64,000 nucleotides of DNA from Phycisphaerales bacterium (GTDB taxonomy: Bacteria > Planctomycetota > Phycisphaerae > UBA1845), in assembly GCA_020852275.1 (NCBI GenBank), contig JADZBE010000010.1, positions 62,001 through 126,000 on the forward strand, read 5' to 3'. How positions within the stretch are numbered: the first letter of the stretch is position 1; each line of letters starts with the position of its first letter. The notes under the pieces are model-generated. The model was not told the origin of the DNA. It made no database searches and saw only the letters and a list, made by a program, of their open reading frames with translations. Positions 1,470-59,500 of this stretch are shown here, one piece after another. Made by a program: the position numbers and the translations under genes.

Positions 1470-2225
1470 ATGTTGAAGCGATCATTCATGGTGTTGGCCT
1501 TTGGGTGGATGGCAACGGCGGCGCTGGGGAGCGAGTACATCGAGGGGGTGAACGACAACTTGCCCGTGGAAGGCGGGTGGACCGCGTCGGGCGGCAACGA
1601 GATCGCCTACCGCTGGACCGCCCAGAACTCCTTCGACCTGACGGAGATTCGCTGGCACACATCTCGCATTCCGGCCGGCACGATCCGGCTGCGCGAGGAC
1701 ACCGGCGCTGCGCCGGGCGCCGTGCTGCGTTCCGTGAACTTCAGCGCCACCGACACCGGCTGGCACGGCGCGCCGTTCACCGAGTCCTACGCGATCGAGG
1801 CCGGGCAGACGTATTTTGTGACGTTCTACGGCTCCAGCGATTACACGGACTACCTCGCCCAGGGCGGCGTGCATCTGACGTACTACTGGACGCCGAACGG
1901 GCAGCAGAACTGGAACGGTCCGTTCGATTGGGCGGGGCACCGCATGATCCAGTTCTGGGGCGACCGCGACAGCGGCGACTGCACCGGCGCGGAAACGCTC
2001 AAGGCAGGCTGCCGCGTCAAGGGCTGCGGCAACATGGTCAAGGGCGTGATGAAGAACGGCGTGCCCGGCGCCTCGGTCACCTTCCGACTCGACGGCGGCA
2101 GCGACCAGGTCGTCGTGGTCAACGCCAACGGCAAGGCCAAGGCTAAATGGTGCCCGGCCTCCTCCGGCAGCCATACCGTCAGCGTCGTCGAGTGCCCGCT
2201 GTCGCAGAGCACGAGCTGCCCGTAG
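1470..2225 (+). CDS. Exported protein with the shared Cys-rich C-terminal module
   Basis: 251 residues. The start ATG at 1470 follows the strong ribosome-binding site GGAAGGAG (1453-1460). The N-terminus (MLKRSFMVLAFGWMATAALG) is a signal peptide. Residues about 20-165 form a Trp- and Tyr-rich beta-type domain with no family I can name (RWTAQNSFDLTEIRWHTS and similar). From Cys171 (DNA 1980-2222) runs the 81-residue C-terminal module also found in the genes at 12871, 50185 and 57245: Cys-x9-Cys, a DGG turn, GKAKAKW, SHTVSVVECP, then an end in TSCP. The module suggests sorting or surface attachment (inference). The gene diverges from the ABC ATPase gene. Confidence 0.8.
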   Translation: MLKRSFMVLAFGWMATAALGSEYIEGVNDNLPVEGGWTASGGNEIAYRWTAQNSFDLTEIRWHTSRIPAGTIRLREDTGAAPGAVLRSVNFSATDTGWHGAPFTESYAIEAGQTYFVTFYGSSDYTDYLAQGGVHLTYYWTPNGQQNWNGPFDWAGHRMIQFWGDRDSGDCTGAETLKAGCRVKGCGNMVKGVMKNGVPGASVTFRLDGGSDQVVVVNANGKAKAKWCPASSGSHTVSVVECPLSQSTSCP

Positions 2226-8235: not shown

Positions 8236-9345
8236 TCAACCGGCGGGACCTGCGCGGGAAGCTCCTGAACTGCCCGGCGCGGCGCGATCGGAATAGAACG
8301 CGGAGAGAATCGCCTCGGTCGCAAGCTGGTGCGCCCGCGCGCTGGGGTGGGCGTCCTGCGAACTGACCACCAGCGAAGGGGTTGGGTTCCTGGTGAGCGT
8401 CGATCGGAGATCGAGCACGTCGAGATTCCGCGACGCGGCCCATTCCACGTGCTGCCGCGCGATCTGCTCCGCGTTGAATCGCTCGCCCCCCGTGCGAAGA
8501 AATGGAAACAACACCACGCGGAACGTCACCCCATGCGCGCGACACGCCTCCGCCAGCGCCGTCAGCCGAGACTGCTGCCGCTCCCAGATCGCGGCATCCG
8601 CGTATCCGTCCGCCAGCCAGTCGTGGAAGCCCCGCACGGTCGGAACGCGCGGCAGGTAGAGAAAGTAGTACATCCACTCGCCCAGCGCCGACCCGTCGGT
8701 GTTGAACCAGCGGCAGCGCGGCGGGCGCTTCGGGTCGAAGTCGCCTCGCGCCGGCAGCAGCCGCTCGATATCGTTGGGCACGTGGATCAGCACCACCTCG
8801 TCCACGCGGTAGCCGTCGAGCAGCGCCGAAAGCGGCCCAAGCTGATCGCCCGTGTCCCAGCCGGGCTGCGCGAGGGTGATGGACTCGACGGGTCGACCCT
8901 GCCGCGTGGACAGCGCCGCGACGACTCGTTCGCTGAGCCGATCCTCGACCCGCTCCACGCCCCAGCCGTAGAGGAAGGAATCCCCAACGAACGCGATGCG
9001 ATACACGTTGGCCGGCGGGCGCGGCAGCCATTCCCGGTCACGGCAGCCCCACGAATTGAGAGACACGTATCGCTCGAACCAGCGTCGCGCGGAGAGCGTG
9101 ACGCCGAAGGAATCCGTGCCGACGCGGACGAAGCGGCAGTACGTCTCGCCGATCCAGAACACGCCGCCCAGCAGCGTCAGGAACATCAGCGCGTTGCCCA
9201 GCGCCCATCCCCATCGAGGATGCCGCGCCCGCGGAAACAGCTTGAAGAACGCGTACGTCAGCGCGGGCAGTGTCGCGGCCACGAATGACCAGAGCAGATA
9301 ATCCGCGATGTAGCCGAATCGTCCGGCGGTCAGCCAATCCCACAT
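8236..9345 (-). CDS. Membrane-anchored SGNH/GDSL-family protein
   Basis: 369 residues. Two membrane segments lie at the N-terminus (about 15-35 and 48-68). The SGNH fold then starts at RIAFVGDSFLYGWGV with the nucleophile Ser in GDS. PNDI matches the block with the catalytic Asn, and DAHPSARAH matches the DxxH block near the C-terminus. Such proteins hydrolyse or transfer acyl groups on lipids or polysaccharides; membrane anchoring suggests an outer-face substrate. It resembles the SGNH protein at 19268 only in fold. No operon partner is seen. Confidence 0.8.
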   Translation of the reverse strand: MWDWLTAGRFGYIADYLLWSFVAATLPALTYAFFKLFPRARHPRWGWALGNALMFLTLLGGVFWIGETYCRFVRVGTDSFGVTLSARRWFERYVSLNSWGCRDREWLPRPPANVYRIAFVGDSFLYGWGVERVEDRLSERVVAALSTRQGRPVESITLAQPGWDTGDQLGPLSALLDGYRVDEVVLIHVPNDIERLLPARGDFDPKRPPRCRWFNTDGSALGEWMYYFLYLPRVPTVRGFHDWLADGYADAAIWERQQSRLTALAEACRAHGVTFRVVLFPFLRTGGERFNAEQIARQHVEWAASRNLDVLDLRSTLTRNPTPSLVVSSQDAHPSARAHQLATEAILSAFYSDRAAPGSSGASRAGPAG

Positions 9346-9389
9346 GCTCGCTGCTTCCTGTTCCGCTTACGCGGGTCCGATCTCCCTTT

Positions 9390-9413
9390 CCGAACCCGAA
9401 GCGCCAGCGAGGA
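9390..9413. repeat. Repeat family S (AACCCGAAGCGCnAGCGAGG)
   Basis: Single unit reading CCGAACCCGAAGCGCCAGCG. Related units occur as inverted pairs at 31350-31432 and 37558-37655. Confidence 0.75.
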
Positions 9414-9595
9414 CCGGGCAGCCCGTGGCAAACTCCGGATCACATGTTTCGGCACATGCTCTTCCCGGGAAAAGCACGTCCCGGAGGTCCGTGCCACCCC
9501 GCCTGCACGGAAATGACGAGACGGTGTTCTTACCCGCGCGGGAGTGACGCTCATTGCCCTTCACCCCGGGCTGGCAGCGCGATCCCTGAACGCGC

Positions 9596-10706: not shown

Positions 10707-12527
10707 CTACTCCTCCGACTCCGGCCGGCCCGCATTGTCATCCGGGCCGAACATCTCGGCGAGATTCGCCTCCTCCAGGTCAAACTGCGCGTCGATGCTG
10801 GCGCTGCTGCACAGCGTGTAAAGCGCGTGGACAACCGTGGTGTAGTCCAGCCCCAATCCGGTCACGTTGCCGCGGACCTCGGCCGCGTCCTCGCCGAGCA
10901 GCGTGATCAGCGGCGTTACGTCGGGCTTCGCAAGGATGGGCGGGGACGTGTGACCGCTCGCGGGGACCGTGCGCAGCAGCGTCAACTGATCGGTCTGCGA
11001 TTCGGCGTTGATGAGCAGGACGCCATCGGGCGAGCGGTAGAAGACGGGCGTGCGGCAGTGAAGGGCGTCGCCGATGACCGCGATGCGCCGCTCGCCGGAG
11101 CGGCGGGCGTGGATGATCGGCGGCTGCGAACTGCCGACGACGTCCAGGACGAAGTTGTCGCCGCCCACGATGGAGCGGTCCAGCGCTGGGTCGCCGCGCC
11201 GCGCAAGCTCCTCGTAGGCCTCGATGCGCACGCGCGGGTCCGGATCGTCCAGCAGCTTGCGCAGCGGCGTGGCGGCGTCGCGGACTTTCCCGGCCGCCCC
11301 GAGCGCGCGAATCGCTTGGAAGCGGAACGGGCTGTCCTTGTCGCCCGCAAGCCGGGCGAGCGGCTGAACGGCCACGTCGTCGCCCAGGCGCAGGCCCGCG
11401 GCGGCGGCGTGAAACGAGACGTAATCCTGCTTGTGAGCGTACAGCGGCGTGAGGAACGGCAGCGACGCGTCGCCGATGGCCTCGAACGCCAGCGCGATCG
11501 CCACGTGCGGCGCGCCCGGCTGGACCATTTCCTGCGCCAGCTCCGCGCTGCGCTGGGCGGGGAAGCCGTCCTGGTTGGGCAGGTAGAGATGCTGGACGAG
11601 GAGCAGAAAGTGCGTCGCGTCGTCCTTGAACTCCTCGGGGATGGTCAGTTGCACGAACGCGGGGGCGATGGCGTCGGCGACCTTGCCCTTCTTCGAGAAC
11701 TTGGTGTTGATGCGGTCCTCGATCTGCATGGCCACGCTCGGCGACGGCTCCGTCAGCACGAGCCGAAGGCGCCGGCTCTCGGTGACGACGCCCCCGCCGA
11801 GGATCATGCCTTGCTTCGGATTGCTCTCCGTGGCCGCGCCTTCGTCGCGGGTGAACGGGTTCATGAACACCGGGCCCGCGCTGAAGGCGAGGGTGCGCCC
11901 GGAGAGCATGATAGCATCCGTCGAATCGTCCTGAACGCGGACGCCGTATTCGAGCTCGCTGGTGAAGAGCCGCCCGCCGCGAAGCGACGTGGTCTCCGTT
12001 TCAGGCAGCGCGCTGACGAACACGTCGAAGTGTGTGCCCTCCGCGGCGGCGCCCGGGATCACGCCCTCGACCAGCACCACGGCCGTGTCCGCGTCGCGGA
12101 TGAGTTGCTCCGGCGTGAGGCTGACGTTGCTGACGCGCGTGGACTTCAGCGGGTAGCGCTTCTCAATCTGCTGCACCAGCCGGTTGAGGACGTGCGGCGG
12201 GCAGTCCGTGCTGCCGTTCTTTCCCAGACCGACCACCAGCCCGTACCCGCGCACCTTCATCGGCGCCAGTCCCTGAAAGGTCGCGCGCTCGCCGATCGTG
12301 TCGCGGTAGCTCGCGGACGAGGCCGCCGCCGTCTTGCGCGGGTCCACGCCGAGCGCGTGCTTGCGATAGTCCTCCGTCTCCCATGTGCAGGATGCGAAGA
12401 AGAGGCAGCCGCACAAAGCCGCAGACAGGAGCGCGCCGCGGCGCAAACGCGACCCTGAGGCCGCGCGCACCCTGATGCGGGCAGGCGGAAGCGACGTCCC
12501 GGCGCGGTCGTCAAGCTGTTTCAACAT
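10707..12527 (-). CDS. FlgI-like lipoprotein with HEAT-type repeats
   Basis: 606 residues from the ATG at 12527 (a TTG at 12596 is in frame but less likely). A lipobox FFASC follows a hydrophobic segment. Residues about 75-330 resemble flagellar P-ring protein FlgI: VRGYGLVVGLGKNGST, NVSLTPEQLIRDADTAVVLV, GTHFDVFVSALPETETTSLR followed by GGRLFTSEL. After this come HEAT-like helices (PFRFQAIRALGAAGKVRDAA; DPDPRVRIEAYEELARRGDP) and a beta-rich, acidic C-terminus. No other flagellar gene is present, and true FlgI is neither lipidated nor this long, so the domain probably serves another envelope structure (inference). Confidence 0.75.
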   Translation of the reverse strand: MLKQLDDRAGTSLPPARIRVRAASGSRLRRGALLSAALCGCLFFASCTWETEDYRKHALGVDPRKTAAASSASYRDTIGERATFQGLAPMKVRGYGLVVGLGKNGSTDCPPHVLNRLVQQIEKRYPLKSTRVSNVSLTPEQLIRDADTAVVLVEGVIPGAAAEGTHFDVFVSALPETETTSLRGGRLFTSELEYGVRVQDDSTDAIMLSGRTLAFSAGPVFMNPFTRDEGAATESNPKQGMILGGGVVTESRRLRLVLTEPSPSVAMQIEDRINTKFSKKGKVADAIAPAFVQLTIPEEFKDDATHFLLLVQHLYLPNQDGFPAQRSAELAQEMVQPGAPHVAIALAFEAIGDASLPFLTPLYAHKQDYVSFHAAAAGLRLGDDVAVQPLARLAGDKDSPFRFQAIRALGAAGKVRDAATPLRKLLDDPDPRVRIEAYEELARRGDPALDRSIVGGDNFVLDVVGSSQPPIIHARRSGERRIAVIGDALHCRTPVFYRSPDGVLLINAESQTDQLTLLRTVPASGHTSPPILAKPDVTPLITLLGEDAAEVRGNVTGLGLDYTTVVHALYTLCSSASIDAQFDLEEANLAEMFGPDDNAGRPESEE

Positions 12528-12870
12528 GCCACGTGTTCCCGAAGTCTGATGGTGAAAGAAACCCAAGTTCGACCGGGAATGGATGGATAATCCCAAGTGG
12601 ATAAGGGTAGCGTTGAGGGGCGGGCGCGGTCAAGTTGGCGCGCAGCCTCGGCGCGCTTGTCATCAGGACCATGGCGTCCTGGACGTGACGCGAACCATGA
12701 GCGAGCGCCATGGCACCGCCGGGTGGCACGGGTCCGCTGCTGCGGACCCGTGCCAGACGGTGAACGGTCCCCCCCAATCCATCACGGCCTGACGAGCGCG
12801 CCAGACCGGGCCGGCGGAGCGTACCACCGGTCGGTGATGAGATACGCTCGGTGCGCCCTGGCGTTCCTCG
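12528..12870. other. Intergenic region with family P palindrome
   Basis: 343 bases between the end of the M28 peptidase gene and the start of the FlgI-like gene. Apart from the palindrome at 12725-12754, nothing was recognised. Confidence 0.5.
12725..12754. repeat. Palindromic repeat, family P, longest copy
   Basis: GGCACGGGTCCGC (12725-12737) and GCGGACCCGTGCC (12742-12754) are perfect 13-bp arms around TGCT. Confidence 0.9.
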
Positions 12871-14001
12871 CTACGGACAGGTTGTCGTCAACGGCGAGAC
12901 GCACGCGGGCGGGTCGAGGACCGCGACCTCGTGCGGGCCGTTGTAGCAGCAGACGGCCAGCTTGGCGCGGCGGTCGATGATCACCGCGTCGAACGGCTGC
13001 GAGCCGTCGATCTCGAACGTGATCGTCTGCCCGTTGTTCTCGGGGGTGCGCATCACGACCTTGGCTTTGATGACGCCGGCGTTGTTGCACCGAACCACGA
13101 ACTTCTTCATGTTGCTGCAGCGCGTATCGCTGCCGGGCAGCCCGGCCTGCTCGGCGAGCCAGCCGATCGCGCCGCGCAGCATCATGGCGGCATAGTCGTA
13201 GTCGATGTAGTTGCTCGTATCGACCGAGTCACACGCGCTGTGGTAGCAGGGATTGCTGCCCCATTCCTCAATCAGCAGGCAAGCCGGTTTTCCGCGCCAC
13301 TCGAACGGAGCGTGATCGCTGGCATCGAACGCCCCTCCCACGATGGGCGTAAGCCCGCCGCTGTATTGGACGATCGCGCCGGCAAGCGCGGTCTTGACGA
13401 AGTTCGATGCTCCGCTGCCGTAGATGTTGCAGGTCATCGTTCCGGAGTTGTAGGCGATCATGTCCAGCGAGATCATGCCGCGGATGTCGTCGGTGCGATG
13501 CTCCCATGAGTAGGCGTCGCTGCCGATCAGACCCTGCTCCTCGCGGTCGAAGGCGATGAAGATGATCGTGGACTCGAAGTCGTACTGCGAGGCGATCCGC
13601 GCGATCTCCATGACGCCCGCAGTCCCGGAGCCGTTGTCGTCGGCGCCGGGGTTGTCCACGGAGTCGTAGTGCGCGCCGATGATGTACTGCACGTCGGGCG
13701 TAAGCGTGCCTTCATGCACGCCGACGACGTTGTAGTACGTCCGCCCGCTGTAGGTGAACGGGTGCAGATACGTCTCCAGCCCGAAGCTGGTGAACGTGTC
13801 GCGGATGTTGGCGCGGGCGAGGTCGTGCTCGGCGCCGAATCCGCGGTTGTCGCCGTTGTGCGTGTACAGCAGGTCGTCGAGGTAATGGCGATAACTGTCC
13901 GCGTCGATCTGCTCGACAAGCTCGACAGGCCCGGACTGGGCCATCGCGGGGATGGCGGCAGGCAGCAGGGCGAAGATCCCAATAAATAAGCAACGTCTCA
14001 T
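12871..14001 (-). CDS. Secreted M28-family metallopeptidase with the shared C-terminal module
   Basis: 376 residues with a clear signal peptide (MRRCLFIGIFALLPAAIPAMA, cleavage near AMA-Q). The start is preceded by GAGGAGG. The peptidase domain carries the two-zinc ligands of family M28: His and Asp in IIGAHYDSVDNPGADDNGSG, the catalytic and ligand Glu pair in DREEQGLIGSD, Asp in SLDMIAYN, and the last His in YHSACDSVDT. It is probably an aminopeptidase acting outside the cell. From Cys295 to the end (DNA 12874-13119) is the 82-residue module shared with the genes at 1470, 50185 and 57245: Cys-x9-Cys, FEIDGSQ, HEVAV, final TTCP. It is a single-gene unit. Confidence 0.92.
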   Translation of the reverse strand: MRRCLFIGIFALLPAAIPAMAQSGPVELVEQIDADSYRHYLDDLLYTHNGDNRGFGAEHDLARANIRDTFTSFGLETYLHPFTYSGRTYYNVVGVHEGTLTPDVQYIIGAHYDSVDNPGADDNGSGTAGVMEIARIASQYDFESTIIFIAFDREEQGLIGSDAYSWEHRTDDIRGMISLDMIAYNSGTMTCNIYGSGASNFVKTALAGAIVQYSGGLTPIVGGAFDASDHAPFEWRGKPACLLIEEWGSNPCYHSACDSVDTSNYIDYDYAAMMLRGAIGWLAEQAGLPGSDTRCSNMKKFVVRCNNAGVIKAKVVMRTPENNGQTITFEIDGSQPFDAVIIDRRAKLAVCCYNGPHEVAVLDPPACVSPLTTTCP

Positions 14002-14438: not shown

Positions 14439-16652
14439 CTATTCCCCCGCCGGGCGTCCGCCCTTGCCGGGGTCGCACGCGCCCAGCCAGCCGTTCGGCT
14501 CGCGAAGGATCAGTTGCACCATCGCGCCGCGGTGCTCGTCGCTGATGGTGTGCCCTCTCGCCTTGAGCATCTCGATCAGCGCGGGCGGTGCGGCACGATC
14601 GAAGAACACCTCGTCGGGCTGCCACTGGTGATGCAGGCGCGGGGCGGTCATGGCCTCCTGCGGCGGCAATCCATAATCCAGCAGGTTGACCATGACGTTG
14701 AGCACCCCGCTGATGATGCGCGGGCCGCCGGAAGCGCCGAGGGCGAGCACCGGACGGTCGTCCTTCAGCACGATCGTCGGGCACATGCTCGACAGCGGGC
14801 GCTTGCCCGGCTCGACGCGGTTACGGTCGGACTGCACCAGTCCGAAGGCGTTCGCTCCGCCCGGCTGCGTCGCGAAGTCATCCATCTGGTTGTTGAGCAC
14901 CACGCCCCACTCGTCCACCGCAGCCAGTGAGCCGAACGACGTGTTGATCGTCTCCGTGCTGACGACGACCGTGCCCGCGGCGTCCGCAATGCAGAAGTGG
15001 CTGGTGCCTTTGTCCTCGGGAAGCTGCGGCAGGATGGGGGTCTCGGTCCGCGGCGCGTCCGGCGTCTTGATCGGCGGCACATCGGGCGTCTCCATCTGCG
15101 GCGAGCCATACGTCTCGATGGGCAGCGTGCCCGGCAGCGACTTCTGAATGCGGATGGCGAACTTGCGGACGTAGGCCTTGGACGTGAGCTGCTCGACGGG
15201 AACGCTCGAAAAATCCGTGTCCGCCAGGTAGCGCGAGCGGTCCGCGAAGGCGTGTTTCATCGCTTCGATGAGCAGGTGCGGGCCGGGGCGCACGTCGTTG
15301 TCGCGCAGATCGGGCATGGGGAAGATTTCGAGGATGTGAAGCGCTTCGAGCAGCGCGACGCCGCCCGACGAGGGGGGGGGCATGGCAATGACGGTGAAGT
15401 CTCGATACGTGCCGACCAGCGGCGTGCGATCCTTGACGGCGTATCCCGCAAGGTCGGCCGCGGTCATGACGCCGCCGGTCCGCATGTGCTGCCCAAGCGC
15501 CTGCGCGAACTCGCCTTTGTAGAAGAAGTCGCCGCCCTGCTCGGCGAGGCGCTTCAGAAACCGGGCAAGCTCCGGCTGCTTGAGCACGTGCCCGACGGGC
15601 ATCGGCGTGCCGCCTCCGAGAAAAGTCCGATAGACGAAGGCGCATCGCTCCTTCAACGATGGATTGGCTTCGTATTCCTTCAGAGCTTCCTTCGCCGCCG
15701 CGGCATACGCTTCGTCGATCGCAAACCCCTCTTCCGCCAGGCGGATCGCCGGCGCCAGCACGCGCGACAGCGGCAGCGTGCCCCAGCGCTTCAGCGCCTC
15801 GCATCGCCCGGCCACCAGCCCAGGCACGCCCGCGGCGAGCAGCCCATTGCGGCTCGCGTCCTTGGGCGGCGTCGCGGCGCCCTCGCGCGCGAGAAACATG
15901 TCGGGCGAGGACGCTGCCGGCGCGACTTCACGAAAGTCCAGCGCGACGGTCCTCCCGTCGGCGAAACGCGCGAGCATGAACCCGCCGCCGCCCACGCCCG
16001 TGCTCTCCGGACGCACCACGGCGAGCGCGAACGAGACGGCCGCTGCGGCGTCGAAAGCGTTGCCGCCCGCGCGGAGGATCTCCAGACCGGCCTGCGAAGC
16101 GTGAGCCGAGTCCGCTGCCACCATCATGCGGCGTCCGCGCGCGATCCAGTCCGGGGCCGGCGCGGCGCTGCTCGCGCCGTCCGCAGCCGCAACCGCCCCC
16201 GCGTGAGGCACACCGGCGGCGCGATGCAGAAACTCCGTAAGCGCCCCGGGCTCCTGCACGCCGACCGTCCGCGCCAGCACCACACCCGCGGCATCCGTCA
16301 CGACGAACGTGGGGAAGCTGTCCACGCCGTACTGGGCGGCGGCAGCCTTGTTCTCCAGAGGGTCCACTCGGACGGGCACGAAGGACGCCAGCGCGCATCG
16401 AACCGCCCGGTCGCCCAGCACGCCTTCCATCTTCCGGCAGCCGCCGCAACGCGGGGTGGTGAAGGCAACAAACACGCGGCGCTGCCCGGTCGAGGCCTCG
16501 CGCTGCGCGGCAGGGAGATCGTCGCCCCAGGTCACCGCCGCGTCAGAGGATCGCGCCGTCAGGAACAGCGCGCCCCCGCCAATAAGCAGCGCGCCCCCAA
16601 GCAGCACGCCGGCGAACACGCCCCATCGAGCCTGTCCCGATCTACGCGGCAT
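14439..16652 (-). CDS. Thioredoxin-like domain fused to gamma-glutamyltransferase
   Basis: 737 residues from the ATG at 16652 (an in-frame ATG at 16682 is also possible). A membrane anchor lies at about residues 10-32. Next comes a thioredoxin-like domain at about 40-145 with VAFTTPRCGGC (Cys69, Cys72) and the cis-Pro loop VDSFPTFVV. From about 170 the protein is a gamma-glutamyltransferase: HASQAGLEILRAGGNAFDAA, STGVGGGGFML, GTSHFCIAD with the self-processing nucleophile Thr550, LNNQMDDF, and RPLSSMCPTIV. The usual TTHYS is TSHFC here, keeping the nucleophile. It should cleave or transfer gamma-glutamyl groups, for example from glutathione, outside the cytoplasm; the CxxC domain suggests coupling to thiol chemistry (inference). 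Confidence 0.88.
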   Translation of the reverse strand: MPRRSGQARWGVFAGVLLGGALLIGGGALFLTARSSDAAVTWGDDLPAAQREASTGQRRVFVAFTTPRCGGCRKMEGVLGDRAVRCALASFVPVRVDPLENKAAAAQYGVDSFPTFVVTDAAGVVLARTVGVQEPGALTEFLHRAAGVPHAGAVAAADGASSAAPAPDWIARGRRMMVAADSAHASQAGLEILRAGGNAFDAAAAVSFALAVVRPESTGVGGGGFMLARFADGRTVALDFREVAPAASSPDMFLAREGAATPPKDASRNGLLAAGVPGLVAGRCEALKRWGTLPLSRVLAPAIRLAEEGFAIDEAYAAAAKEALKEYEANPSLKERCAFVYRTFLGGGTPMPVGHVLKQPELARFLKRLAEQGGDFFYKGEFAQALGQHMRTGGVMTAADLAGYAVKDRTPLVGTYRDFTVIAMPPPSSGGVALLEALHILEIFPMPDLRDNDVRPGPHLLIEAMKHAFADRSRYLADTDFSSVPVEQLTSKAYVRKFAIRIQKSLPGTLPIETYGSPQMETPDVPPIKTPDAPRTETPILPQLPEDKGTSHFCIADAAGTVVVSTETINTSFGSLAAVDEWGVVLNNQMDDFATQPGGANAFGLVQSDRNRVEPGKRPLSSMCPTIVLKDDRPVLALGASGGPRIISGVLNVMVNLLDYGLPPQEAMTAPRLHHQWQPDEVFFDRAAPPALIEMLKARGHTISDEHRGAMVQLILREPNGWLGACDPGKGGRPAGE

Positions 16653-16883
16653 GGATTTCGCCTTCACCCAAGAAAGCCCCATCCGCTTAACTGTATGAAC
16701 GCCCGCCTGATTCCGCCAATCCGGCCTGTCGCCAGGGGACGCGGTGGCCCCGGGATGTGTGTGCCATCGCAGGCGAGCGTCTATGGAACCAGGCCTGGAT
16801 CGCCGGGGCCGGACAATCGTCCGCGCAAGCTGCGGTGCGCCTGGGGATCAGAACAGGGGCGCAGCTCGCGATGCGCGGGTGCA

Positions 16884-50184: not shown

Positions 50185-51735
50185 ATGCAAACTCGGAACA
50201 GGTTGATGAAGCTCTGGATTGTCGTCGCCGCAGGGGCGATGACTGTTGGCGCTGTTGCCGCCGAGCGCCGTGCGTTTCCGCTGCGAACCGTCGGCGCGAC
50301 CGACGGGAGCGGCGTGACGCGACTGACGTTCGACCGCGCGAGCTATGACGCCCTCAAGACGGCGGAGGACATCGTGCTTGCCGGCGTGCCGCTGGACGAC
50401 CGCAACTCGGTGGACGTCGCCGTGCATCGCGTCGAGGTCTTCACCGAAGACGCGATGATCGCAACCGCGCTCAACGGGCGCGACGTGCCCACGGCCCGTC
50501 CGGATGTCCTGCTGCTTTCCGGCACGGTGACGGGGCGGGAGGGATCGCGCGTGTTCATGGGGCTGTCGCCGCACGGCTGCAACGCCATGATCGAGTTGGA
50601 CGGGCAGACGCACATCATCTCCGCAGGCCCGGCGTCGGGCGGCGGCCCGGCCGTGTACAACCTGACCACCCTGCCGGAAGGCGTGATCGCATGGGCGCCG
50701 TTCCAGTGCGGGTCGGACCTGTTGGCGCTTCCCAAGCACGAGCCGCGCACCGCGCCGGCTTCGGGCGGCTCCTCACCGGCGGGCGATCCGCCGTGCCGCG
50801 TGGTCGATGTGGCGATCGAGACAGACTACGAGTACACGCGCGACATCTTCGGCGGAAACACGGACGCCTCGGCCGCTTATGTGGCGACGCTGATCGGGGC
50901 GGTGAGCGAGACGACTCTGCGCGACCTCAACGTGCATCTGAAGGTCGCCTACCTGCGCGTCTGGGCGGACGACAGCGACCCGTACACCGCGACCAACAGT
51001 TGGGACCGCTTCTTCCAGTATCAGGATCACTGGAACGCCAACATGCGGCACATCGTCCGCGACAATGTGCACATGCTCTCGGCGCTGCGCGACGGGTCGA
51101 TCGGCGGGCTGGCCTATCTGCCGGGCGTCTGCCAGCTCGACTACGATTACGCCTACTCATCGTATCTCAACGGGTTCTTCCCCTATCCGCTTGAAGACCA
51201 CCGCGACGAAAACTGGGACGTCTTCGTCGTCGGTCACGAAGAGGGGCACAACCTGGGCGCGCCGCACTCGCACGATCACTCGCCGCCCATCGACGGCTGC
51301 GGGCTGGGCGATTGCACCGAAGCCTACGGCGGAACGTACATGAGCTACTGCCACACCTGCTCCGGCGGCATGACCAACATCGTGCTGCGGTATCACGAGC
51401 GCACGATCAGCGAGGCCATCCTGCCGTATCTGAACGAAGCACCGTGCGACCTGACGCATGATCCCGAATGCACCGGCGGCGTGGACTGCAACCTCATCAC
51501 GCAACTGAAGACCGTCTGCCGCGACGGCAGCTTCAAGTTCAAGGCCGTGGTGAAGTCCGGTCTCGCCGAGGGCACCGCGCTGACGCTGACGCGCGATGGG
51601 TCGGATTCGCAAAGCGTCACGGTAAGCAGCACCGGCAAGGCCAAGGCGATCTGGAAAGGCGTCGGCGGCGGTTCGCACACGGTCTGCATCGACGAATGCC
51701 CGTCGATCTGCGGGGCGACGAGTTGCAATCCGTGA
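50185..51735 (+). CDS. Secreted metzincin metallopeptidase with the shared C-terminal module
   Basis: 516 residues. The ATG at 50185 follows AGGGAGGA. Signal peptide MQTRNRLMKLWIVVAAGAMT, cleavage after about VAA. A prodomain-like region runs to about residue 200, then a catalytic domain (CRVVDVAIETDYEYTRDIFG; LIGAVSETTLRDLNVHLKVA) with the zinc motif HEEGHNLGAPHSHD and the Met-turn GGTYMSYCH, typical of reprolysin-like (M12B-type) enzymes. From Cys435 to the end (51487-51732) is the 82-residue module also found at 1470, 12871 and 57245: Cys-x9-Cys, GTALTLTRDGS, GKAKAIW, SHTVCIDECP, end in TSCNP. Confidence 0.92.
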   Translation: MQTRNRLMKLWIVVAAGAMTVGAVAAERRAFPLRTVGATDGSGVTRLTFDRASYDALKTAEDIVLAGVPLDDRNSVDVAVHRVEVFTEDAMIATALNGRDVPTARPDVLLLSGTVTGREGSRVFMGLSPHGCNAMIELDGQTHIISAGPASGGGPAVYNLTTLPEGVIAWAPFQCGSDLLALPKHEPRTAPASGGSSPAGDPPCRVVDVAIETDYEYTRDIFGGNTDASAAYVATLIGAVSETTLRDLNVHLKVAYLRVWADDSDPYTATNSWDRFFQYQDHWNANMRHIVRDNVHMLSALRDGSIGGLAYLPGVCQLDYDYAYSSYLNGFFPYPLEDHRDENWDVFVVGHEEGHNLGAPHSHDHSPPIDGCGLGDCTEAYGGTYMSYCHTCSGGMTNIVLRYHERTISEAILPYLNEAPCDLTHDPECTGGVDCNLITQLKTVCRDGSFKFKAVVKSGLAEGTALTLTRDGSDSQSVTVSSTGKAKAIWKGVGGGSHTVCIDECPSICGATSCNP

Positions 51736-57244: not shown

Positions 57245-59500
57245 ATGATCAGGCAACGATCCGCCGCAGAATCGACGCGGAGTCGTCGAGCGACGGAGAA
57301 CCGGCTGTTCGTCACGGGTCTGCGTACCGCGATGGCACGGCTAGCACCGGTGCTGTGCATGGCCCTCTTCCCAGCAGCCGTTGCTGAGGATTGCTTCGTG
57401 CAGAACAGGGGCACACCGTCCTCACCCCCGAAGCAGCAGCTAAGCCCCGCTATGGCGTTCGACGCGGGCCGGGGGGTCACCGTCATGTACCCCAATGACA
57501 GCCAGGGGCTGATGTACGAATGGGATGGCGCCACTTGGGCGCGCAAGGACGCCGTGGGGCCAAGGAGGTTCAGCCGACCCGGTTTGGCATACGATTCGGC
57601 CCGAGGAGTCACCGTGCTTTTCGGCGGAAGCGGCCTTCAGACTCACGGAACGTGGGCTTGGGACGGTGAGGCCTGGTCAATGCTGACGGCGGAGGGGCCG
57701 TCGATTCGGGAAGATGTGGGGTTCACTTACGACTGCTTGCGAGGAGTATGCGTGCTGTTCGGCGGGAGCTCGTCTGGCTCAAAGTTTGGGGAGACGTGGG
57801 AGTGGAACGGCGAGTCGTGGAAACTGTGTTCCAATGAAGGACCCAGGCCGCGCAACCGACTCGCCATGGCATACAATTCCGCGCGGCGGATGACCATCAT
57901 GTTTGGCGGCGAGGTCGGTTCACACGAGAAAAGTGGTGAGACATGGGGATGGGATGGCGAGACGTGGACTCTTCTGGCCGAGACCGGTCCAAGCCCTCGG
58001 ACGGGGCACGGGATGGCGTTCGACAGTGCCCGCGAGCGGATCGTGCTCTTCGGCGGATGGGACGACCAGGAGCCGACCGACGAGACGTGGGAATGGGATG
58101 GTTCGCAGTGGCAGGAGCGCATCGTGCAATCCGGCCCATCAGGGCGCTACATGACGGGCATGGCTTACGATGACCGTCGTCAGGTCACGGTCCTGTTCGG
58201 GGGCTGGGATGTGGATTGCTGGGACTCACAAATATGGGAATGGAACGGCTCTGCTTGGACGATAGCTCAGCGGGCGCCGACACCGCTGGACCAGCTCCCG
58301 ATGGTTTATGACAACCGCCGCAACTCCCTCCTGCTCGTGCGATCCTGTGAAACCTGGGAATGGCGCGGGCTGTCGAGTGGCTGGGATCTGATCGACACAA
58401 GCAACCTGGCCGTTGGGGACGCCAATGCCATGGCCTACGACAGCGTCCGCGAGGTCGCCGTCATGTTCACGTGCGACGTCTACTCCAATCCACGCAAGCA
58501 GGCGACGAATGAATGGAATGGCGAGATGTGGGTTCGCCGCAGCTCCACCGGTCCCAGCAGTCGCACCGGCCACGCCATGGCTTTCGACAGCATTCGCGGC
58601 GTAACCGTGATGTTCGCCGGACTCTATGGCGGGAGCGACACTTGGGAATGGGACGGCAACACCTGGGTCCAGCGGAGCAATACCGGCCCATCGGCCCGCC
58701 GCCTCCACGCCATGGCTTTCGATGAGGTCCGAGGCGTGGTGGTCATGTTCGGGGGGTTCAACGAGAGAGAATTCCTCGGCGACACGTGGGAATGGGACGG
58801 CGTGGAGTGGGTCGAGCGAAGCGCACCCGGCCCCAGCCCGCGCGGGTACCACACGATGATGTACGATCCCGCGCGGCGCGTGACCGTTCTCCACGGAGGA
58901 GACACCGGCCCCGGCATGCCCAGCGATGAAGCGTGGGAGTGGGACGGACAGGTCTGGACGCCGGTGCTGTCCCCGGGGGTACCGCGCCGGCAGCACGCGA
59001 TGACGTTTGACAGCATTCGCGGCGTACGGGTTGCGCACGGAGGCGTGGATGAGAAGCTGCAGACAACCAGCGAGACATGGGAATGGTTCGCGGATTGCAA
59101 CTGCAACGATCGTCCTGACGGAGATGACGTTGACGCCGGCGCGCCGGACTGCAATGGCAACCGGGTTCCCGACGACTGTGACATCGAGCGCGGCCTTGCT
59201 CGCGACGCCGACGCCAACGGCGTGCCCGACACCTGTGAGCCTTGCTCTTTCCTTCGGCACCTCAAAGCCGACTGCCGTGCGAATGCGGACGGTTTCCAGA
59301 TTCGCGCCGTGCTCAAAGCGGACCTTCCGCCGGAAGCCAAGCTGACCATCTGCCTCGACCTCCTCGACTGCCAGACGGTCCGTTGGGGCGAGCGGGCTCG
59401 CCGTCGCGTCGTCTGGGCGATCCCTCAAGCCGACGAGCATGAGGTGTGCGTGGGCGACTGCTCCCAGGGCGAATGGTGCGCATCGGCGACCTGCCCCTGA
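57245..59500 (+). CDS. Secreted kelch-type repeat protein with dockerin-like linker and shared C-terminal module
   Basis: 751 residues. The ATG at 57245 follows GGAAGGAG by 4 bases. A long N-terminus carries a signal-like segment (LAPVLCMALFPAAVAEDC). Then come 12 kelch-like repeats of about 50 residues, each with M-[AT]-[YF]-[DN]-x2-R-x-V-x-[VI]-[ML]-[FY]-G-G and a TWEWDG strand, forming one or two beta-propellers. Next is a calcium-type linker (CNCNDRPDGDDVDAGAPDCN; DADANGVPDTCE) like dockerin or thrombospondin-3 repeats. From Cys667 (59243-59497) is the 85-residue module shared with 1470, 12871 and 50185, with Cys-x9-Cys, HEVCVGDCS and the end ATCP. A surface binding protein is likely. Confidence 0.88.
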   Translation: MIRQRSAAESTRSRRATENRLFVTGLRTAMARLAPVLCMALFPAAVAEDCFVQNRGTPSSPPKQQLSPAMAFDAGRGVTVMYPNDSQGLMYEWDGATWARKDAVGPRRFSRPGLAYDSARGVTVLFGGSGLQTHGTWAWDGEAWSMLTAEGPSIREDVGFTYDCLRGVCVLFGGSSSGSKFGETWEWNGESWKLCSNEGPRPRNRLAMAYNSARRMTIMFGGEVGSHEKSGETWGWDGETWTLLAETGPSPRTGHGMAFDSARERIVLFGGWDDQEPTDETWEWDGSQWQERIVQSGPSGRYMTGMAYDDRRQVTVLFGGWDVDCWDSQIWEWNGSAWTIAQRAPTPLDQLPMVYDNRRNSLLLVRSCETWEWRGLSSGWDLIDTSNLAVGDANAMAYDSVREVAVMFTCDVYSNPRKQATNEWNGEMWVRRSSTGPSSRTGHAMAFDSIRGVTVMFAGLYGGSDTWEWDGNTWVQRSNTGPSARRLHAMAFDEVRGVVVMFGGFNEREFLGDTWEWDGVEWVERSAPGPSPRGYHTMMYDPARRVTVLHGGDTGPGMPSDEAWEWDGQVWTPVLSPGVPRRQHAMTFDSIRGVRVAHGGVDEKLQTTSETWEWFADCNCNDRPDGDDVDAGAPDCNGNRVPDDCDIERGLARDADANGVPDTCEPCSFLRHLKADCRANADGFQIRAVLKADLPPEAKLTICLDLLDCQTVRWGERARRRVVWAIPQADEHEVCVGDCSQGEWCASATCP

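Follow-up and report, generated by a model that had tools for sequence, protein, structure and literature searches.

A C-terminal module of about 80 residues ends a large and varied set of exported proteins in two genera of Phycisphaerae. We favour, with moderate confidence, reading it as an attachment tag peculiar to this lineage, an Ig/FN3-like domain with disulfide bonds that has come to stand where relatives have the dockerin. The module is read as an attachment tag replacing the dockerin because the M28 peptidases of relatives mostly carry a dockerin at the junction where the module begins, and because the genomes rich in the module hold few dockerins and cohesins. We infer further that it docks outside the cell, that its bearers share a receptor, and that it is functionally equivalent to a dockerin.

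The module was recognised in the window, the whole stretch of 64,000 nucleotides analysed here, by a sequence-only reading that placed it, as a segment of 81-85 residues, at the ends of four exported proteins whose N-terminal portions are unrelated (Table 1). All four copies are real: each translates as described and each reaches a stop codon, and a profile search finds no fifth copy in the 64-kb window. Among them, the copy on the M28 peptidase has diverged furthest. The window also encodes a predicted protein in which a flagellar P-ring (FlgI) domain is followed by HEAT repeats (10707-12593, minus strand), and a gamma-glutamyltranspeptidase with an N-terminal thioredoxin domain (14439-16679, minus strand).

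Table 1. Module-bearing proteins of the window and their C-terminal modules (positions are those of the window).
Feature	Position	Strand	Evidence or remark
Exported protein, unknown passenger then module; signal peptide MLKRSFMVLAFGWMATAALG	1470..2225	+	Passenger: weak DUF4082 / choice-of-anchor R match
C-terminal module, subtype II (CTGAETLKAGC...SCP)	1980..2222	+	Profile E 5.8e-24
Exported M28 peptidase; signal peptide MRRCLFIGIFALLPAAIPAMA	12871..14001	-	Peptidase_M28 E 1.1e-34
C-terminal module, subtype III (diverged)	12874..13119	-	Profile E 1.5e-17; AlphaFold2 model
Exported Reprolysin-like (M12B) metzincin; signal peptide MKLWIVVAAGAMTVGAVA	50206..51735	+	Metzincin passenger
C-terminal module, subtype I; Ig/FN3-like sandwich	51487..51732	+	Profile E 2.7e-28; pLDDT 92.9
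Exported kelch-repeat protein; signal peptide MARLAPVLCMALFPAAVA	57332..59500	+	Kelch repeats
C-terminal module, subtype I, preceded by NGVPDTCEP linker	59243..59497	+	Profile E 4.9e-23

Used as a single query, the metzincin copy has 72 matches in the genome, with a best non-self E-value of 5.5e-24, and a profile of 37 genome copies has 144 matches within its own 5.05 Mb genome, 134 of them at E<=1e-3. Because the profile was made from copies of the same genome, including those in the window, its E-values for the genome's own copies are optimistic; the single-copy query is free of this bias, its self-match excepted. Reading the DNA behind every profile match gives 143 copies in 139 open frames; among the ten or so weakest copies (E 0.002 to 0.6) there may be chance matches. 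These copies have several features in common. First, the module is tied to the C-terminus, as had been proposed, with 137 of the 143 copies placed there; of the other six, which are internal, four share their protein with a C-terminal copy, a fifth is followed by a tail of 96 residues, and the last comes straight after the signal peptide. Second, the stop codon falls 0-2 residues past the last cysteine in 128 of the 137 C-terminal copies (exactly one residue past it in 99), and 60 of the 137 have an exact Cys-Pro end. Third, the Cys-x9-Cys start, the GKAKAKW core and the terminal Cys described from the window hold for most genome copies, which fall into three sequence subtypes (I, II and III), some with an extra Cys pair; the sequences are divergent, and few residues besides the cysteines are near-invariant. 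Finally, the module is under purifying selection, with pN/pS of 0.08-0.53 in orthologous or near-orthologous pairs. Module fragments lacking a proper passenger lie just behind intact module genes at two places (G000:C7:11209-11463 and G000:C34:44759-44908) and are probably decayed duplicates, and tandem clusters of at least three module genes are kept across the genus (G000:C22:137480-142484; L136, L137 and L138).

As a rule the bearers of the module are exported rather than cytoplasmic. A signal peptide is present by a strict rule in 99 of 136 module frames, against 2 of 88 in the 120 codons directly upstream of the module, where none is expected, and by relaxed limits in 114 of 136; the rule is our own and no substitute for SignalP. 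Many of the remaining module genes have a plausible signal peptide from a start deeper inside the frame. The passengers are as unrelated across the genome as they appeared in the window: 129 passengers make up 62 similarity families, with 47 singletons, and the Pfam tally includes kelch propellers (10), subtilases (S8; 7), right-handed beta-helices (7), reprolysins (3), M14 carboxypeptidases (2) and many others, next to the M28 peptidase. By a rough regular-expression rule the larger passenger families combine different module subtypes, which suggests that module tails may have been exchanged among passengers.

AlphaFold2 models of the metzincin copy (subtype I) and of the diverged M28 copy (subtype III) are both all beta with seven strands, at mean pLDDT 92.9 and 92.5 respectively. 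Comparison with solved structures places both among Ig/FN3 sandwiches, the best VIA Z being 8.9 and 9.2 over 78-81 residues, middling values that indicate the fold class only; type IX secretion CTD and cohesin-like folds are absent among the fold matches listed, which excludes nothing. On these models the module is a seven-stranded Ig/FN3-like sandwich, and the close and the diverged copy agree on one fold. Four cysteine columns are near-invariant, and it had been suggested that they form two disulfides. In four of the five losses both C1 and C3 are gone (p 9e-7), and this co-loss supports a C1-C3 disulfide; C2-C4 is left over and would be the second core disulfide by elimination only. Two further columns have cysteines that always co-occur (21 of 21 cases), and those of another pair do so less strictly (15 of 22).

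The sequence-only reading recognised the module in no named family, and none is matched above cut-off. No Pfam or NCBIfam model matches the modules of the window proteins at its cut-off. Window copies match Big_3_5 and Big_1 below the curated cut-off (e.g. 16.9 of 35.5 bits), and among the 37 modules the best E-values are 3.1e-5 for Big_3_5 (PF16640) and 4e-4 for Big_1 (PF02369), over the beta core. The likeness to these two families is a weak profile similarity in that core and in the general fold, but neither has the frame of four cysteines or stops strictly at the C-terminus as the module does, and they are usually tandem and internal. A PDB sequence match to 'Bagel', a designed propeller (E 6.5e-8), is the sum of eight insignificant repeats and was discarded. 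A literature search found no published description of the module. Neither an Ig-like domain at the C-terminus nor a docking tag there is new in itself; an Ig-like tag standing in for the dockerin across an exported proteome would be.

As an abundant element the module is lineage-specific and restricted to two genera. Among 51 genomes of the family, from 32 genera, five are rich in it, with about 77-144 copies each: the genome of the window with three congeners (genus g1) and one g29 genome. The other 46, from 30 genera, have 0-4 copies each, and in a phylum-wide sample, with 14 candidates per genome scored, only 2 of 391 other genomes have a match, both weak. The relatives that bear names are Phycisphaerae MAGs (Bin_14R, BroJett003, MAG_25 and SURF_32).

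What the relatives carry instead is apparent from the M28 peptidase, whose sequence minus the module was searched against the genomes of the family. A homologue in G031, 67% identical, has the module at its end, as in the genome of the window (G000), and the better homologues of module-poor genomes are about 44-57% identical. Most of the latter have a dockerin at the module's junction, in several as the terminal domain. Six of the eight M28 junction tails scanned match Dockerin_1 (E 2e-5 to 1.5e-3, mostly just under the family cut-off), and two have no match. In a few homologues a different domain occupies the junction, with a dockerin downstream of it in some, and the tails of the remotest homologues are of other kinds; in many relatives further domains come after the dockerin, which is thus not always terminal there. 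The two module-bearing M28 peptidases form one clade with support of 100/99. Because this tree is unrooted, the direction of change, from dockerin to module, is drawn from how widely dockerins are spread. The metzincin offers a weaker parallel, its homologues in module-poor genomes ending in calcium-binding NGIPDECE (TSP3-like) repeats or dockerin-like tails. The GC-type dockerin (NF041540) was considered as the ancestral tag and rejected, its matches in the family being mostly weak and below cut-off; type I dockerin (PF00404) is the better counterpart.

The genomes as a whole show the same tendency. Dockerin_1 counts, taken among at most about 100 candidates per genome, are 18, 8, 6, 21 and 7 in the module-rich genomes versus a median of 42 in the 46 others (p 7e-4), and cohesin counts are 1, 0, 0, 0 and 1 versus a median of 2 (p 0.007); both p-values treat as independent genomes that are related, the rich set being two genera. 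When the 32 genera are ranked by dockerins, the two rich ones come 1st and 4th from the bottom. Counts equally low occur in some module-poor genera, and the rich genomes are depleted of dockerins, not devoid of them. The two rich genera are possibly sisters, so that the replacement may have been a single event. In G052, from another family of the same order, one protein (L057, G052:C31, residues about 404-658) has two tandem modules and then a terminal dockerin; this is perhaps the ancestral arrangement, and since both are found on one protein the two tags are not strict alternatives.

Module and type I dockerin are alike in being small, in occurring one per protein on exported peptidases and other Phycisphaerae proteins, and in sitting at the identical junction of the orthologous M28 peptidase. 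They are unlike in structure: the dockerin, a pair of EF-like loops, binds calcium and is mostly helical, whereas the module is an all-beta Ig-like sandwich with disulfides, and no cohesin-like partner is known for it. No match to PF00404 is listed among the 37 modules. Phycisphaerae have been proposed to display reprolysin-like (M12B) and M14 peptidases on their surface by cohesin-dockerin pairing, in a 'planctosome' that is itself hypothetical (Andrei et al., PMC6461901). The same peptidase kinds, reprolysin and M14, bear the module in this lineage. On the interpretation we favour, passengers would leave the cytoplasm by means of a conventional signal peptide at their N-terminus, the module would fold outside the cytoplasm with its cysteines closing into disulfides, and the folded module would hold passengers as varied as proteases, propellers and beta-helices to one shared partner, either on the cell surface or within the matrix. 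It would then do the job of the relatives' C-terminal dockerins, a planctosome-like display of peptidases having been rebuilt on a different tag. A bolder version, which we put forward only tentatively, is that of a new attachment system: the lineage would have dropped most of its calcium-dependent cohesin-dockerin pairing for an unrelated disulfide-bonded Ig-like tag on more than 100 exported proteins, with a receptor of its own and perhaps a contribution from the free C-terminal -Cys-Pro. If this is true, the C-terminal docking tag of a whole exported proteome can be exchanged inside a single bacterial family, and the lineage is a natural experiment on the role of dockerins outside cellulosomes. 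One profile is also a ready marker for the set of surface proteins in uncultured planctomycetes, and the module a possible orthogonal protein-display tag.

One secreted protein consists of a signal peptide and the module alone (G000:C12:18264-18482, L213 about 9247-9482; L217:6982-7281), and it is kept as a 105-residue frame in three congeners. Its conservation makes it probable that the module does something by itself. The gene adjoins another module gene and a two-component system, an NtrC-type response regulator with a histidine kinase; the regulator is NtrC-like and below the PrsR cut-off. A common sigma-54 promoter, which the NtrC-type neighbor suggested, was rejected, the -24/-12 pattern not being enriched upstream of 124 genes. 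A ResA/TlpA-like thiol-disulfide oxidoreductase lies near the module-only gene in G000. A search short of a full phylogenetic profile of gene families found no receptor or partner gene for the module, and the expected co-occurrence with a particular secretion or processing gene set did not emerge: exosortase (PF09721) is present in 51 of 51 family genomes, only five of which are module-rich.

The earlier proposal of a sorting or attachment system is partly supported. The C-terminal position, the export, the unrelated passengers and the shared fold of the two modelled copies agree with it, and neither of the findings that it named as refuting (a mainly internal or cytoplasmic module; predicted structures of unrelated fold) was obtained. 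The dockerin junction points towards attachment, and the comparison with PEP-CTERM and type IX sorting signals is not supported. PEP-CTERM regions are likewise short regions of C-terminal homology on many exported proteins within one genome, but the module is a folded domain without a transmembrane helix or basic tail: a TM-like 17-mer is present in one of 137 C-terminal tails, and no basic cluster, LPXTG or PEP motif was found in them. Exosortase-, sortase- and rhombosortase-type signals were rejected on this ground and on the universal presence of exosortase in the family. A signal of the type IX kind, a folded C-terminal domain read by an outer-membrane translocon or a processing enzyme and removed or modified on arrival, is unlikely, though it is the strongest of the alternatives. 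Type IX CTDs (TIGR04183, TIGR04131) share with the module the size of about 80 residues, the Ig-like beta fold and the C-terminal position on many unrelated exported proteins, and the very tight C-terminal end fits as well. However, the module has conserved cysteines and no sequence match to these CTDs. No type IX CTD model is among the NCBIfam matches of the 37 modules at E<=1, in a collection that presumably includes such models, and a search for the SprA/Sov translocon was negative in all of 12 genomes, with the control genomes equally silent. The module-only protein and the internal and N-terminal copies also stand against a sorting signal. So does the M28 peptidase of relatives, which has a signal peptide and, in most of them, a dockerin in the module's place; this points to a role in docking or attachment and away from an export signal that is cleaved off.

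Rather unlikely, and slightly more so, is a passive cap, that is, a robust disulfide-bonded Ig domain that has no specific partner and spread because it keeps proteases away from the C-terminus. It would accord with the stable predicted fold and the disulfides, with sequences in which little besides the cysteines is fixed, and with purifying selection of ordinary strength, but it leaves unexplained the depletion of dockerins and cohesins where the module is abundant, the fact that copies stop almost exactly at their last Cys, and the conserved module-only protein. Least probable is a domain for adhesion or for binding a substrate or glycan (CBM-like or intimin-like Ig), bringing enzymes to a common substrate such as the extracellular matrix, for although the fold neighbors of the models include CBM31, CBM56, intimin and bacterial adhesins, and a single terminal copy per protein is common among CBMs, these neighbors at Z 7-9 are generic Ig/FN3 matches, there is no conserved aromatic patch except the W/F after GKAK, and non-enzymes are among the passengers.

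Two observations in the relatives concern the module and its history. Single copies in module-poor genera are on one orthologous protein, about 49-52% identical (L054, L055 and L056, in G035, G016 and G025), which suggests that the module may have been on one protein before its expansion or have moved together with that protein. In addition, long dockerin-like tails in relatives (L152, L155, L157, L169-L171, L182 and L184) stop 1-2 residues past a Cys, often as Cys-Pro, as the module does.
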